Shown: positions 11,989 through 30,639 of the stretch, piece after piece
Layout: every line of letters starts with the position of its first letter
Position numbering within the stretch: position 1 is the stretch's first letter
DNA from: Wenyingzhuangia marina
Lineage (GTDB): Bacteria > Bacteroidota > Bacteroidia > Flavobacteriales > Flavobacteriaceae
Direction of reading: 5' to 3'
Length of the DNA: 64,000 nt
Assembly (NCBI RefSeq): GCF_900130035.1
Contig: NZ_FQXQ01000003.1
Location: 434,001-498,000 of the forward strand
Notes under the pieces: generated by a model
What the model saw: only the letters and a program-made list of their open reading frames with translations
Databases searched by the model: none
What the model was told of the DNA's origin: nothing
Made by a program: the position numbers and the translations under genes

Positions 11989-14900
11989 TTATAGTTGAAT
12001 GTTTAATCCAAAAGTGAATACTTCATTTGTTGGATTAGCATTATATTCTCCAAACTTAGCATTGATGTTGTTTCCAAACGTAGTAGTTTCTGGATCTATA
12101 TATGGATTTTCTTTAGGTGTCCATAACAAGAAGTTACTAGCAGTAAAAGATAAATTAACAGCAGAAACCTTTATTTTTTCACAGTAAACTTTAGGAATGC
12201 TATAAGCTAAAGTCACATTTCTTAATTTTAAGTAAGATCTATCAATAACAGCGTATGAAGCTCCTTCCATTCCTCCTTCACTATAAAAAGTATGAAGTGC
12301 AGTTGGGTTTACAGGGATTGAGTTTTCAGAGTAAGTACCATCACCATTGTCTACGACAGAATTAGGAATTAAAAAAGCATTACGATCATTTAAAACACTC
12401 TCTGGAGAACTACCTGTCCAATGTAAATAATCTTTTGTTCCAGAATAAATATAACCTCCGTATCTAAAATCTAAAGTACCGGTTAGGCTTAACCCTTTAT
12501 AAATAAGAGTGTTGGTAAGTCCCATTCTATACTTTTCGTTTACATCTTTACCAAGTAGTTCCATGTCTGTAGTTTGTTGTGGATTTCCGTTACCATCAAC
12601 AACAATACTTTCTACACCATCTACTTCTACTGTTTTGGCCTTTGTAAATTTAAATTGACCTAATGGCATTCCCTCTAAAGCATAAAGACCTCCATTAGTA
12701 CCTCCAAAACCAGTTAGTTGAATTTCTCCAACATCTAAATGTTCAACCATGTTTTTATTTTTGGTATACGCCCAATTTACATCCCATCTAAAGTCTGTTG
12801 TTTTGATAGGTGTTAAGTTTACGTTTAATTCAATTCCACTATTCCTAATGTCTCCTAGATTGGCTGTAACAGTAGTATATCCTGTTGATGGATCTAAATC
12901 TAAATTTTCTATAACACCTTTAGTAAGTCGGTTGTAATAAGAAAGTTCAAAACCTACACGTTTTCCAAAAAACATATTTTCAAATCCAACCTCAAATTCA
13001 TCGGTAAGCTGAGGTTTTAACTTTTTATTACCTAGTTTATTAGAGGCAGTGTATGAGTTTACCCCTCCCAAAGGAAATGTTAAATTATCAATGTTAGGAT
13101 ATCCTGGATATTTAGATTGTCCACCAACATATCTATCATAAACATTATAAGAACCCGCATCATCACCAGTAGAACCGAAAGCAACTCTTATTTTAGAGTA
13201 ATCTAATGAATCTATATCAATATCTTTAGTTAATAAAAATTTACTAAGAATAAAACTTGCTGTTAGTCCACCATATAAAAAACTTTTGTTTTCAGGAGGT
13301 AAGGTTGATGACCAGTCGTTTCTTAAGGTTCCGTTCAAGAATAAATAATCGTTATAACCTATGTCTGCACTAATATAGGTACCAATTAATCTTCTTTTTG
13401 TTTGATCTTGTACTGAAGTAGAGGGACTTAAGCTATTTCCTAAGTAATAGAATCCAGGAACATCAATAGAGGTAATAGATCCAGAAAGTGAGCTGTAACT
13501 TCTTTCATTTGTATTTAAACCTATAATAGTACTAAAGTTTAAATCATCAGTAAAATCTTTCTGATAAGTTAACATCAAATCATTACTAAACTGTGCTCTT
13601 GATCTTTTGGTTTGAGTATAACTACCAGGATTTGCCGCTTGTGAACCCGCATTGAAAGAATCTTCTGGAAAAGCAAGAATTCCAATATGCTCGTCAATAG
13701 TAGCCGTTTCATAATCTCCAGAAAAACGATAGGTAAGTTTTAAATTATCTACGATATTATAATCAATTTCAAATTTACCGAAAAATTTATATTTACTTTG
13801 TTCCGCCCCATCATTATTTAAAATAAAGTAAGGGTTGACTCCATAAGGAGTAAAATAATTTTCGATAGTATTAAAAGGATTGTTTAAATCTCTAAAATCT
13901 ACAATTGATAATTCACTTGGAATTTCACGCAAAGATCTACTTAAAGAAGTTCCCTGTCCTGATGGAACAGATTTTGTTTTTTCTCTACTAAAATTAATAG
14001 CACTACCAAATTTGAATTTTTTAGAAGTATGAGTTGCTTTGGTAGATAAGGTATATCTCTTGTAAGAATCATTATCTGTTGGAATGACACCATCTACAGT
14101 ATTTTGTGAAGCAGATAAAAAGAAAGTATTTTTTTCATCACCACCAGAAACAGATAATGAGTTTTTAATGTTTTGTCCATAATCGTAGAAATCACGAATG
14201 TTATCTTTTAAAGCAATATATGGTTTTAACTGTTGAGTATTGTTTATTACATTACCCCAAACTCTGTCAACACCATCAAAGGCAGCACCCCAGTTACCGT
14301 TTTCTTCTAAAGCCCTGTCACCACTCCAACCTTGACCGAATTGGTTTTGGGTGTCAGCAAGAAAACCTACACGACTAATAGCTACAGAACTGTTAAAGTT
14401 TACTTTTAACTTTCCGTTTTTTCCACTTTTTGTGGTAATTAATACTACTCCGTTAGCAGCTCTAGAACCATAAAGTGCGGTTGCTGCAGCACCTTTTAAT
14501 ATGGTCATGTTTTCAATATCATCAGGGTTAACAGCATTGATACCAGAACCAAAATCTACTTGAGAGTTTAAGCTATCTCCTGATGGGTTTGCACGGGTTT
14601 CTCCAGTACGACTTTGTTCGTTTGTAATTACAATACCATCTACTATGTATAAAGGTTGTACATTTCCAAATGAAGAAGCTCCACGAATGATAACGTTTTG
14701 TGTACCTCCTGGAGATGGAGCCGAACTCACTTCTAAACCAGTTACTTTACCTTGTAAAGCTGTCATGGGGTTAATAGCCTGGGTTTTGGTTATTTCATCA
14801 CCTTTAATTTCGGTTATCGCATATCCAATAGTTTTTTTCTGTTTGGAAACTCCAAGAGCGGTTACCACTACTTCATCTAAAGCTTCAATATTACCTTTTA

Positions 14901-15180
14901 GCTTCGTGTCGATAGTATTGCTTGCTCCAACAATTTTTTCAACAGTTTCCATACCTACATAACTAAATTGTAGAATATCTCCTTCTTTGGCATTAATATT
15001 GTATAATCCATCAAAGTCAGTTAAGGTTCCTGTTGAAGATCCTTTTATCAGAACAGTTGCTCCTGGTAATGGTCCAGAATCATCGGAAACTGTTCCGCTA
15101 ATTATTTTCGTTTGCGCAAACGAAAACTGAGTTGTTAATGCTAATAAAAGCATTAAGATTTTTGGGGTTTTTAACTTCAT
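11989..15180 (-). CDS. SusC/RagA-family TonB-dependent transporter
   Basis: 1063 residues: signal peptide 1-22, carboxypeptidase-regulatory domain about 25-100 with TLTDFDGLYNI, then the SusC link ALDEVVVTALGVSKQKKTIGYA, a plug domain to about 260 (AANGVVLITTKSGK) and a barrel ending in FTFGLNIQL. It is the first gene of a four-gene minus-strand operon (SusC, SusD_2, DUF5011-type, lipid-binding type). No glycosidase, lyase or protease accompanies it, so the substrate cannot be guessed from neighbours. Confidence 0.95.
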   Translation of the reverse strand: MKLKTPKILMLLLALTTQFSFAQTKIISGTVSDDSGPLPGATVLIKGSSTGTLTDFDGLYNINAKEGDILQFSYVGMETVEKIVGASNTIDTKLKGNIEALDEVVVTALGVSKQKKTIGYAITEIKGDEITKTQAINPMTALQGKVTGLEVSSAPSPGGTQNVIIRGASSFGNVQPLYIVDGIVITNEQSRTGETRANPSGDSLNSQVDFGSGINAVNPDDIENMTILKGAAATALYGSRAANGVVLITTKSGKNGKLKVNFNSSVAISRVGFLADTQNQFGQGWSGDRALEENGNWGAAFDGVDRVWGNVINNTQQLKPYIALKDNIRDFYDYGQNIKNSLSVSGGDEKNTFFLSASQNTVDGVIPTDNDSYKRYTLSTKATHTSKKFKFGSAINFSREKTKSVPSGQGTSLSRSLREIPSELSIVDFRDLNNPFNTIENYFTPYGVNPYFILNNDGAEQSKYKFFGKFEIDYNIVDNLKLTYRFSGDYETATIDEHIGILAFPEDSFNAGSQAANPGSYTQTKRSRAQFSNDLMLTYQKDFTDDLNFSTIIGLNTNERSYSSLSGSITSIDVPGFYYLGNSLSPSTSVQDQTKRRLIGTYISADIGYNDYLFLNGTLRNDWSSTLPPENKSFLYGGLTASFILSKFLLTKDIDIDSLDYSKIRVAFGSTGDDAGSYNVYDRYVGGQSKYPGYPNIDNLTFPLGGVNSYTASNKLGNKKLKPQLTDEFEVGFENMFFGKRVGFELSYYNRLTKGVIENLDLDPSTGYTTVTANLGDIRNSGIELNVNLTPIKTTDFRWDVNWAYTKNKNMVEHLDVGEIQLTGFGGTNGGLYALEGMPLGQFKFTKAKTVEVDGVESIVVDGNGNPQQTTDMELLGKDVNEKYRMGLTNTLIYKGLSLTGTLDFRYGGYIYSGTKDYLHWTGSSPESVLNDRNAFLIPNSVVDNGDGTYSENSIPVNPTALHTFYSEGGMEGASYAVIDRSYLKLRNVTLAYSIPKVYCEKIKVSAVNLSFTASNFLLWTPKENPYIDPETTTFGNNINAKFGEYNANPTNEVFTFGLNIQL

Positions 15181-15867
15181 AGTTTATAGATATTTAATTA
15201 AGTTACTTTTTAAGTATCAAACACCAAACTTTATGGGTAAGGTGGAGATTATTTAATGCATATTCTTGTCATATCCCAAAGAAAGAGGAATATGTTGTGT
15301 ACGGTTTTATGATTTAACAGCTGACAAGATGATTTTTGATTTAAATATTTAGGGTAATTATCATATATAGTTATGATTTATGACAGTTATTTTTTAAGCA
15401 TAAAAATGTTTTTTAAAAAAAGAGAATAATAAACTATGAATCAATAGTTTATCTTTTTTTTATACAAATGTTAATCCTCTGTTTTTTATCTTCTGTATAA
15501 GAAAATGATTAGTTGTTTTTTTATAGATATTAATTAGTTTAATAATTCCTATTTGTTATTTAATGTATAGTAATTGTTGACTTAACAATTATTTAACACT
15601 ACCAGTCTACAGGTTAACATAGTTTTGTTTAATAATCATATGTTTATATTTTAATTTTTTAAGCATCTTTTGTTTGTTATGCATGAATAGTAATTTGGTG
15701 GATTTTTTTTAAAAAAAAGGGAAAAATAAGCGAGTAGGCCAGTATAACCAATCAAAAGTGGTCATAAATAAGACGGAGAATTAGGTTAGTATTTAAAAAC
15801 CTAAAAACGTCAGATCTATTAAAAATGTATTCTAAAATTGATTATATTTTTTAGAAATATGTAACAA
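15181..15867. other. Long AT-rich non-coding region upstream of SusC
   Basis: About 690 bases with no credible gene on either strand. It separates the SusC start from the hemN terminator, so it must hold the promoter and control sites of the second SusCD operon. An 8-bp inverted repeat (TAATTGTT at 15571-15578, AACAATTA at 15584-15591) and a plus-strand TAGTTTTG (15620-15627) are the only local signals I could pick out. A small RNA cannot be excluded. Confidence 0.4.
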
Positions 15868-27650: not shown

Positions 27651-28886
27651 TTGAATTTCGAATTATTTATAGCAAACAGACTTACAAGGTCTCAGGAATA
27701 TAAAAATAGTGTTTCATCTCCAATCATAAAAATAGCAATTATAGCTATAGCATTGGGTATGATGATGATGATAATTTCTATAGCTACAGGAATTGGATTA
27801 CAAAGAAAAATTAGAGATAAAGTAGCAGGGTTTAATGGTCATGTAGTAATTAGTAATTACGATAACAACCAATCTAAGACGACACAGAACCCCATAAGTA
27901 TTCATCAAAATTTTTATCCAAAGTTTACTACAGTTTCTGGTATTAAGCACGTTCAGGTTTTTGCTACACGAGCAGGAATCATTAGAACAGAAGACTCTTT
28001 TGAGGGGGTTGTTTTAAAAGGAGTTGATAAAGATTATGATTGGTCTTTTTTTAAAGAGTACTTGCAAGCGGGAAGATTACCTGTTTTTAGTGATAAAGCA
28101 TCAAAAGAAGTATTAGTCTCTAAAATAATTGCTGATAGAATGCAGTTTAAATTAGAGGATACTTTTGATACTTATTTTATCAAAGAAGATCCAAATACAA
28201 TGCCTAATAGAAGGGTATTTAAAATTGTAGGGATTTATGATACAGGTTTTGAGGAGTTTGATAAAAATATTATGATTGGTGATATCAATCAAATCAGAGG
28301 TTTAAATAAATGGAAAAATGATCAGGTAGGTGGTTTTGAAGTTTTTGTAAACGATTTTAATGAAATTGATAGCAAATCAAAAGAAATATATCAAGAAATT
28401 GATGTAACCTTAGATAGCCAAAGTTTGTTTGAACAATACCCACAAATTTTTGAATGGTTACAATTGTTTGATGGAAACATAGCTGTCATCATTATTATTA
28501 TGATAGTCGTTGCAGGAATTAATATGATTACAGCTTTACTTGTGTTAATTTTAGAAAGAACACAGGTAATTGGTGTTTTAAAAACGTTAGGAGCTAAGAG
28601 CTGGTCTATCCGTAAAATATTTTTGTATAACGCTTCTTATATTATTGGTAGGGGATTGTTGATAGGAAATATTACAGGATTGCTTGTTATTTATTTACAA
28701 TATCAGTTTAAGTTTATAGAATTAGATCCTCAAAATTATTATGTGCATGTAGCTCCCGTATATATTACATTTACTCAAATTGTAATTCTAAATCTAGGAA
28801 CGCTTATTTTGTGTGTATTAATGATGTTAATTCCGTCTTATATTATTACAAGAATTAGTCCAGCTAAATCTGTAAAATTCTCATAA
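27651..28886 (+). CDS. ABC transporter permease, LolC/E-FtsX type
   Basis: 411 residues starting at TTG 27651, giving the usual flavobacterial beginning MNFELFIANRLTRSQEYKNS. One membrane segment lies at about 25-48. A large periplasmic domain follows (about 50-270), then three C-terminal segments in an FtsX domain (about 280-405, with LLVLILERTQVIGVLKTLGA). Related proteins move lipoproteins from the inner membrane (Lol) or export other molecules. No ATPase gene is adjacent. Confidence 0.85.
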   Translation: MNFELFIANRLTRSQEYKNSVSSPIIKIAIIAIALGMMMMIISIATGIGLQRKIRDKVAGFNGHVVISNYDNNQSKTTQNPISIHQNFYPKFTTVSGIKHVQVFATRAGIIRTEDSFEGVVLKGVDKDYDWSFFKEYLQAGRLPVFSDKASKEVLVSKIIADRMQFKLEDTFDTYFIKEDPNTMPNRRVFKIVGIYDTGFEEFDKNIMIGDINQIRGLNKWKNDQVGGFEVFVNDFNEIDSKSKEIYQEIDVTLDSQSLFEQYPQIFEWLQLFDGNIAVIIIIMIVVAGINMITALLVLILERTQVIGVLKTLGAKSWSIRKIFLYNASYIIGRGLLIGNITGLLVIYLQYQFKFIELDPQNYYVHVAPVYITFTQIVILNLGTLILCVLMMLIPSYIITRISPAKSVKFS

Positions 28887-28960
28887 AAGCTTACATAAAC
28901 ACTGTGTTAAAATGTTTTTTGTCAGTTTTTAAATAATCATACTTTTTTAAATTGCAAAAA

Positions 28961-28989
28961 AAACTCCTCCATTGGGGATGGAGGAGTTT
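28961..28989 (+). terminator. First hairpin of the array, likely terminator of the permease gene
   Basis: An 11-bp stem (28961-28971 with 28979-28989) and a 7-nt loop, T-run after the right arm. It is the first hairpin after the LolC/E-type stop at 28886. Confidence 0.75.
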
Positions 28990-29602
28990 TCAAACTAACT
29001 AAAACTATCTAAACTATGAAAAACTATTTTGTTTTACATTGAATAGATATTCAATTAGTGTGCCAATAACTACTTTTTTGAATAAAATTAGTGAGGATTT
29101 TTACTTGAATTTTATGCATAAAAAAACCTCCATTGGGGGTGGAGGTTTTTTCAAACTAACTAAAACTATCTAAACTATGAAAAACTATTTTGTTTTACAT
29201 TAAATAGATATTCAATTAGCGTGCCAATAAGTATTTTTTGAATAAAATTAGTGGAGATTTTTACTTGATTTTTATGCATAAAAAAACCTCCATTGGGGGT
29301 GGAGGTTTTTTCAAACTAACTAAAACTATCTAAACTATGAAAAACTATTTTGTTTTACATTAAATAGATATTCAATTAGTGTGCCAGTAACTATTTTTTT
29401 GAATAAAATTAGTGAAGATTTTTACTTGAATTTTATGCATAAAAAAACCTCCATTGGGGGTGGAGGTTTTTTCAAACTAACTAAAACTATCTAAACTATG
29501 AAAAACTATTTTGTTTTACATTAAATAGATATCCAATTAGCGTGCCAATAAGTATTTTTTGAATAAAATTAGTGAGGGAATTTTACTTGATTATTATGCA
29601 TA

Positions 29603-29633
29603 AAAAAACCTCCATTGGGGGTGGAGGTTTTTT
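29603..29633 (-). terminator. Last hairpin of the array, likely terminator of lipA
   Basis: A 12-bp stem (29603-29614 with 29622-29633) and a 7-nt loop; on the minus strand it is followed by a T-run. It is the first hairpin met after the lipA stop at 29716. Confidence 0.72.
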
Positions 29634-29715
29634 CAAACTAACTAAAACTATTTAAACTATGAAAAAAACTAAGAAGTTTTCTTGTTAAGTGGTTTAACAA
29701 CTATCGTGCCAAAAG

Positions 29716-30639
29716 TTAGTTTACGTGTTTTTTTGCATGATAAGATGATCTTACCAAGGCAGAACTTTCTACGTGCTTAAATCCTAAAGATTTAGCGTAC
29801 ACTTCATATTCTTTAAATAATTCTGGTGTAATATATTCTTTTACAGGTAAATGCTTTTTACTTGGTTGTAAATATTGCCCTAAAGTAACAACATCAACAT
29901 TGGCATTTGCTAAATCTCTTAAGCTTTCAAAAACTTCTTCTTTTTTCTCACCTAAACCTAACATAATACCAGATTTAGTTCTACGTTGTCCTTGTGCTTT
30001 AATATATCTTAACACTTCTAGACTTCTGTCATATTGTGCTTGTATACGTACTTCACGGGTCAATCTACGAACTGTTTCAATATTGTGAGAAATTACTTCT
30101 GGAGCAGCAGCAATCAATCTGTCGATGTTTTTAGTATCTCCTTGGAAATCTGGAATCAAAGTTTCCATGGTTGTATTAGGATTGGCTCTACGGATGGCAG
30201 CAATGGTTTCTGCCCAAATAATTGATCCACCATCTTTTAAGTCATCTCTATCAACCGAAGTAATAACGGCATGTTCAATACTCATAATTTTAATAGAACG
30301 TGCTACTTTTTCGGGCTCATCCCATTCTACTGTTTCTGGTTTTCCGGTTTTTACACCACAAAAACCACAAGATCTGGTACAAATATTTCCTAAAATCATA
30401 AAGGTAGCAGTTCCATCTCCCCAACATTCTCCCATGTTAGGACAACTACCACTGGTACAAATAGTGTTTAGTTTATATTTATCTACCAATCCACGTAATT
30501 CAGTGTATTTTTTTCCAACAGGTAACTTAACTCTTAGCCAATCTGGTTTTTTATTTCCAACAGGAATAGTTCCAGGATTTGTAGTTGTTTGTGCTTTATT
30601 TGGTAATACAGATTTAAATGTAGTTGCTTCCGTACTCAT
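29716..30639 (-). CDS. lipA: Lipoyl synthase
   Basis: 307 residues. The LipA-specific auxiliary cluster cysteines are C61-x4-C66-x5-C72 (CTSGSCPNMGEC), and the radical-SAM motif is C87-x3-C91-x2-C94 (CTRSCGFC). The conserved serine near the C-terminus (VRSSYHA) is the third auxiliary ligand. The enzyme inserts sulfur into octanoyl-protein to make the lipoyl cofactor. It appears monocistronic, with the hairpin array downstream. Confidence 0.97.
   Translation of the reverse strand: MSTEATTFKSVLPNKAQTTTNPGTIPVGNKKPDWLRVKLPVGKKYTELRGLVDKYKLNTICTSGSCPNMGECWGDGTATFMILGNICTRSCGFCGVKTGKPETVEWDEPEKVARSIKIMSIEHAVITSVDRDDLKDGGSIIWAETIAAIRRANPNTTMETLIPDFQGDTKNIDRLIAAAPEVISHNIETVRRLTREVRIQAQYDRSLEVLRYIKAQGQRRTKSGIMLGLGEKKEEVFESLRDLANANVDVVTLGQYLQPSKKHLPVKEYITPELFKEYEVYAKSLGFKHVESSALVRSSYHAKKHVN

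Follow-up and report, generated by a model that had tools for sequence, protein, structure and literature searches.

Five tandem units beside lipA in Wenyingzhuangia marina: putative sigma54-type small RNA genes with complementarity to SusC start regions

In the stretch of 64,000 nt analysed here (the window), the lipA gene and a permease gene that converges on it are separated by five terminator-like hairpins, one every 160-161 bp. The initial annotation had described both the hairpins and their position between the two genes, and this description is borne out. The locus raises the question of what such a series of copies does. The answer towards which the evidence points, and which we regard as quite probable, is that the units are five tandemly arranged genes, each preceded by a sigma54-type promoter, which encode one trans-acting small RNA (sRNA), and that this RNA would repress SusC synthesis.

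Organization of the array

The array extends from 28956 to 29714 and is made up of five units. All of them align on the minus strand, which is also the strand of lipA, and the array end adjoins the lipA stop codon at 29716. The units and their neighbours are listed below; the transcript limits are predictions.

27651..28886, plus strand: FtsX/MacB-type permease gene (LolC/E-like; PF02687, PF12704), converging on the array
28956..29068, minus strand: putative sRNA unit farthest from lipA (element 29052-29068, predicted transcript ~28956-29039, seed 28991-29023, terminator 28960-28990)
29120..29229, minus strand: putative sRNA unit (element 29213-29229, predicted transcript ~29120-29200, seed 29152-29184, terminator 29121-29151)
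29280..29389, minus strand: putative sRNA unit (element 29373-29389, predicted transcript ~29280-29360, seed 29312-29344, terminator 29281-29311)
29441..29550, minus strand: putative sRNA unit (element 29534-29550, predicted transcript ~29441-29521, seed 29473-29505, terminator 29442-29472)
29602..29714, minus strand: putative sRNA unit nearest lipA (element 29698-29714, predicted transcript ~29602-29685, seed 29634-29666, terminator 29603-29633)
29716..30639, minus strand: lipA, radical SAM lipoyl synthase (PF04055, E = 2.2e-20; PF16881, LIAS_N, below its cut-off)

Tandem Repeats Finder delimits the repeat at 28953-29666, with a period of 161, 4.4 copies and 94% matches. The two-unit period of 321 bp obtains a higher score (1314) than the one-unit period (1252), which supports the A-B-A-B pattern previously proposed; likewise, ACACTAAT (minus strand) is common to units 1 and 3 and ACGCTAAT to units 2 and 4. 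The tandem array of the initial annotation is therefore real, but its end lies at 29714 and not at 29705, because a fifth, diverged unit sits there. The upstream half of this unit, which adjoins lipA, has strongly diverged, yet it retains TTGGCACG-N4-TTG, and over its 3' 66 nt it shares 98% identity with the unit at 29119-29278. What is conserved in a unit is therefore its promoter-like element together with the seed and the terminator.

Read on the minus strand, the units successively comprise TGGCAC[AG]-N4-TTG, a weak hairpin, the seed and a terminator hairpin with a U-run. The terminator hairpin and its T-run are present in all five units. The seed is UUUUUCAUAGUUUAGAUAGUUUUAGUUAGUUUG in the four similar units and is mostly unpaired in the predicted single-sequence folds. 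A transcript starting 13 nt past the last G of the element would be ~81-84 nt long. Compared with the other hairpins, hairpin 1 (28960-28990) carries changes on both arms that keep the pairing. The initial annotation had seen covarying stems in this; the compensated changes are there, but they concern one unit only, and RNAalifold predicts no pairs on a MAFFT alignment of 27 units. Formal covariation support is thus missing, and the hairpins rest on single-sequence folds. Stronger evidence than the stem changes is the maintenance of the promoter-like element and the seed beside terminators that differ between species. The terminator stems correspond to 30 distinct strings, some only slightly different, among 44 units (46 unit sequences were extracted, from which the false L093_2 and L094_1 were dropped; the extractor missed L117, L230 and L233, the last of which was added by hand to one comparison).

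Units and promoter-like elements in related genomes

Counted in related genomes, as the initial annotation had suggested, the units recur within the genus. In a similarity search of 149 relatives, five of the six congeners were matched (G001, G002, G003, G004 and G006) and G005 (85% complete) was not. In each of the five matching congeners, lipA is followed on its own strand by three or more tandem units. Inspection by eye indicates that the permease gene follows the array in G001, G002, G003 and G006; the G004 contig ends within the array. The similarity matches outside the genus were weak and are not relied on. A pattern combining the element and the core was found at 19 places in 10 of 397 genomes of the family, own genome included, versus one place for the reversed control (an earlier, stricter pattern, which proved too strict, recovered 5 of the 397 genomes). 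Among eleven loci checked, seven have lipA upstream, on the same strand and within ~315 nt (L199, L228, L229 and L231-L234); upstream lipA is absent at L230, at L151 and at the second arrays L171 and L201.

The lipA loci themselves were also surveyed, 80 of 588 being kept, with a profile built from 27 units. The profile matches 13 of the 80 loci at E < 0.01, always on the lipA strand; nine of these belong to the training set and four do not (L083, L096, L108 and L117). Twelve of the 13 have a copy at most ~200 nt from lipA, and the L083 copy is ~1 kb away. The other 67 loci, including all 24 titled Flavobacterium, have no profile match at E < 0.01. A relaxed element pattern, applied to the 600 nt after lipA, gave 13 hits on the lipA strand, spread over 12 loci, and 0 on the opposite strand, with ~2.9 expected per strand. 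One relaxed-pattern hit, in L039, was discarded as due to chance; this locus has no profile match.

Several related sequences were observed away from lipA. The own genome contains a second array of two shorter, diverged units of the same RNA type (L171, G000:C1:709828-710038), and a second array of the congener G002 (L201, G002:C1:985775-985988) lies before the same downstream gene, read as putative rhodanese-like. In another genus, L230 (G320) carries a similar element-plus-hairpin unit at ~1498-1790 of the reversed locus, with no lipA in 3 kb, and a second TTTTTTGGCACGTAGTTTG element ~280 nt further on. At L151 (G000:C1:15818, minus strand), a seed-like TTTAGTTAGTTT precedes a terminator-like hairpin, with no clear sigma54-type element within 150 nt; it is possibly a further sRNA.

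TGGCAC-N5-TTG is found with fixed spacing in all five units of the array, and TGGCA[CT]-N5-TTG in every unit read in the five matching congeners, whose units were detected by plain similarity. In the sigma54 consensus, a C follows the -12 TTG. The corresponding base varies among the units (A, T, G or C), so the element is only partly canonical, and the first copies of L094 and L096 have no -24 element. TTGGCAC-N5-TTG with at most one mismatch occurs 184 times in the own genome versus 99 times for its reverse, and rpoN was found in all 21 genomes searched. A study of Flavobacterium psychrophilum reports a -24/-12 motif at mapped start sites, the role of which was confirmed by mutation in one operon, and places it before genes for chaperones, proteases, Skp and gliding (PMC9723704). 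TonB enrichment in Flavobacteriia emerges from a survey of sigma54 regulons, whose main text does not contain the terms sRNA and small RNA (PMC12316311).

Complementarity to SusC start regions

SusC-type transporters are the main gates for glycans and other large nutrients in Bacteroidota. Simple pattern counts do not reveal targets: the 24-nt antisense, with up to three mismatches, has no place outside the array in the own genome, and for 13-nt seed antisense patterns the counts fall below those of the reversed controls (25 vs 31 and 24 vs 60). It is with the SusC genes pooled as a class that the signal emerges. In the own genome (G000), 44 genes carry a Plug domain, and Plug frames of 950 to 2000 aa were considered as SusC-type. 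Going by the listed frame lengths, the sets included all such genes in G000 (24), G006 (22), G378 (18) and G196 (3), and four of the five in G374. The start regions (-50 to +20) were compared with those of ordinary genes for pairing with the sRNA of the same genome, control genes of at least 900 aa being excluded; for the SusC genes a signal-peptide heuristic set the start codon, and for the controls the first ATG was taken.

In G000, the 24 SusC regions are predicted to pair better than 81 controls by energy (p = 1.9e-5) and by longest Watson-Crick run (p = 2.1e-5), with runs of at least 9 in 12/24 versus 12/81. Significant differences were also obtained in G006 (22 vs 30; p = 2.5e-5 for energy, 0.0023 for run; runs of at least 9 in 7/22 vs 4/30), G378 (18 vs 30; p = 1.1e-4 and 1.1e-5; 12/18 vs 1/30) and G196 (3 vs 25; p = 0.003 and 0.0038; 2/3 vs 1/25). 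The comparison was not significant in G374 (4 vs 35; p = 0.086 and 0.17; 1/4 vs 2/35). In 70-nt windows from the five genomes, the mean energy is best where the window covers the start codon and approaches background values at -190 to -85; some pairing excess persists downstream of the start codon in G196 and G378. For the shorter TonB receptors, pairing is weaker (means of -14.1 to -15.1 kcal/mol). The longest unbroken run between the sRNA and a SusC leader of the own genome is 12 nt. Two SusC mRNAs of G196 are predicted to pair almost unbroken from -24 to +15 (-39.4 and -37.7 kcal/mol), and one SusC gene of G374 reaches -36.1 kcal/mol with the RNA. One predicted target lies within the window:

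15175..15210, minus strand: start region (-30 to +6) of a TonB-dependent transporter gene (11989-15180, 1063 aa), predicted duplex of -19.2 kcal/mol

The complementary sequences differ among lineages. In the own genus, the RNA reads TAGTTTTAGTTAG or similar and the SusC leaders AACTAAAACTA or AACTAACTAAACTAT; in G378, the RNA reads GAGTTAG and many SusC leaders TTAACTCAAAT; in G196, the RNA reads GAATTAG and two of the three SusC leaders TTAATTCAAATAA. Two clades were defined, A (G000 and G006) and B (G378, G196 and G374). Compared with the mean of the other-clade RNAs, the own RNA pairs better for 37/46 leaders of clade A (p = 1.8e-6) and 18/25 of clade B (p = 0.006), on z-scores scaled on the same ordinary genes, so that the controls centre on zero by construction. 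For that reason, the comparison between own- and other-clade RNAs was repeated with raw energies, setting the SusC leaders against both ordinary genes (p = 2.8e-5 for A and 0.0073 for B) and their own dinucleotide-shuffled versions (p = 0.0002 and 0.0011). The pairing is specific to the RNA of the own clade, which suggests that the seed and the leaders changed together. This specificity resides at the clade level: the G000 and G006 RNAs are interchangeable, the longest runs of the G006 leaders being slightly longer with the G000 RNA (8.14) than with their own (7.91), and the G374 leaders pair equally well with the G378 RNA. A prediction set beforehand for G006 and G374 held in G006 by energy, not by run, and in one of the four G374 leaders.

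A group of leaders was observed in front of SusC genes that belong to different genera and have a nearly identical N-terminus, MKTKFNGILTLLLA (MKTKFSG in L313): L286 and L300 from G196, L337 from G374, and L313 and L314 from G378. They are approximately full antisense sequences of the sRNA, with the first codons included in L286, L300 and L337.

Alternative explanations and proposed role

Several scenarios may explain these units. One is that they represent a bidirectional terminator between converging genes, tandemly duplicated and devoid of any further role, as the position of the hairpins and the A and T runs that flank them on both sides could suggest. Nevertheless, the element and the seed are retained where the rest of the unit diverges, a related RNA with different terminator stems stands beside lipA in other genera, a second array exists elsewhere in the genome and the seed matches SusC starts in a clade-specific manner, all of which make this scenario very unlikely. 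A plus-strand peptide array or a flavo-1-type RNA, the two candidates of the initial annotation, are hardly credible. The MKNYFVLH frame is indeed present in four spacers, it recurs in several units of G002 and in an altered form in G003, and a frame MKKTKKFSC follows the fifth hairpin. Yet MKNYFVLH is the reverse complement of the seed region, and its likeness to a gene start follows from the complementarity of the seed to such starts; moreover, neither G001 nor G006 yielded the frame, and both keep the RNA. Concerning flavo-1, which is included in Rfam, no family reached its gathering score across the window, and flavo-1 is absent from the 65 sub-threshold matches over the array (E up to 10), none of which was kept. 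Neither were any of the 15 sub-threshold matches over one unit (E up to 3) or the single chance match in five other lipA loci. The more general idea of a multicopy small RNA family under selection is supported, with its conserved parts read on the minus strand.

Other scenarios accept the RNA and differ on its promoter or its effect. The RNA could be driven by the housekeeping sigma factor and a PhoB/OmpR-type activator instead of sigma54. In several other genera, a TTAAC-N6-TTAAC direct repeat, which resembles an OmpR/PhoB-type box, starts 28-30 nt before the site string in 7 of 17 lipA-downstream units (L063, L080, L093, L107, L229, L233 and L234), with a background over the lipA loci of 0.0027 per 130 nt; it can also be read in L083 and L108, and in L094 and L096 it precedes the first copy. 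In L109, L112, L117 and L232, the sequence TAnnTTTG, given as the flavobacterial housekeeping box (PMC9723704), overlaps the element. Nevertheless, the repeat was not seen upstream of the own-genus units, and the -24/-12 element persists in every unit read in the matching congeners, so this promoter assignment seems unlikely. It is likewise improbable that the RNA pairs with SusC mRNAs to activate or protect them, or to act as a sponge: the sign of the effect is not given by sequence alone, but the pairing covers the start codon, where FopS-10 of Bacteroides has been reported to block susC translation in vitro (PMC11697453).

In the reading favored here, that of tandem sRNA genes repressing SusC synthesis, each copy would be transcribed on the minus strand, away from lipA, from its own sigma54-type promoter, which would require RpoN and an ATP-driven activator. 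The RNA would begin with a weak hairpin at its 5' end, continue with ~33 nt of unpaired seed and end in a Rho-independent terminator. Its seed would pair with the translation start region of many SusC-type mRNAs, most likely blocking ribosome entry. The trigger for sigma54 activation would probably be envelope or protein-folding stress; activated sigma54 would then result in less synthesis of abundant, hard-to-fold outer-membrane proteins, and the tandem copies would provide a higher dose of sRNA. Since the predicted pairing lies over the start codon, as in FopS-10, and sigma54 is linked to envelope stress, a stress-induced brake on SusC is the most economical reading. We also lean, if only slightly, towards a broader hypothesis for the Flavobacteriaceae, in which a lipA-linked, sigma54-driven sRNA would be a class-wide SusC off-switch, the seed and dozens of leaders would have drifted jointly into lineage-specific codes, and tandem amplification would set the dose. 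If true, part of the Flavobacteriaceae would gain an outer-membrane-protein shut-off similar to that of enterobacteria but run by another sigma factor. Across genera, the concerted change of seed and leaders would offer a test case for the coevolution of one regulator with many targets, and the leader motif would predict which SusC genes fall under control.

The multicopy sRNAs that silence outer-membrane proteins are a known kind of regulator; what appears to be new is the family, along with the sigma54-type elements, the tandem arrangement and the linkage to lipA. A search of the open-access literature turned up no paper describing this RNA, which is not proof of absence. Among the closest systems is FopS of Bacteroides (RF04319), also composed of multicopy, paralogous short sRNAs that pair with the susC start region in Bacteroidota, a pairing that is predicted in the present case. 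Its 14 genes comprise nine intergenic, four antisense and one 3'-UTR-derived (PMC11697453), with canonical sigma-ABfr promoters and a seed at the 5' end, whereas the array described here is tandem and linked to lipA, with a sigma54-type element and a seed in the middle. The FopS model gives 20.8-24.3 bits (E = 0.44-2.1) on the five units, versus a gathering score of 56, and the likeness is one of way of working, not of descent. Flavo-1 is described as a computed RNA motif widespread in Flavobacteriaceae (PMC9723704). The enterobacterial RybB and MicA are sRNAs under an alternative sigma factor that shut down outer-membrane protein mRNAs in envelope stress (PMC1804206). They depend on sigma-E, in contrast to the sigma54 proposed here, and the similarity is of logic alone, with no sequence relation shown. 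The Qrr sRNAs of Vibrio, described as sigma54-dependent quorum-sensing regulators with several copies per genome, have no Rfam match here. They are encoded at separate loci and have other targets.

For the 3.24 Mb of the own genome, 13 exact copies of TTGGCAC-N5-TTG are listed, four of them in this array and one in the second array. Among the other eight, L168, L169, L178 and L180 overlap open frames, and L170, L172, L173 and L179 lie 49-80 nt ahead of an ATG and in no frame longer than 120 codons. L170, L172 and L173 precede a TonB-like gene (just under the Pfam cut-off), a ResB-like gene and a DegP-like gene (trypsin and PDZ), which suggests a putative envelope-linked sigma54 regulon in this genome.
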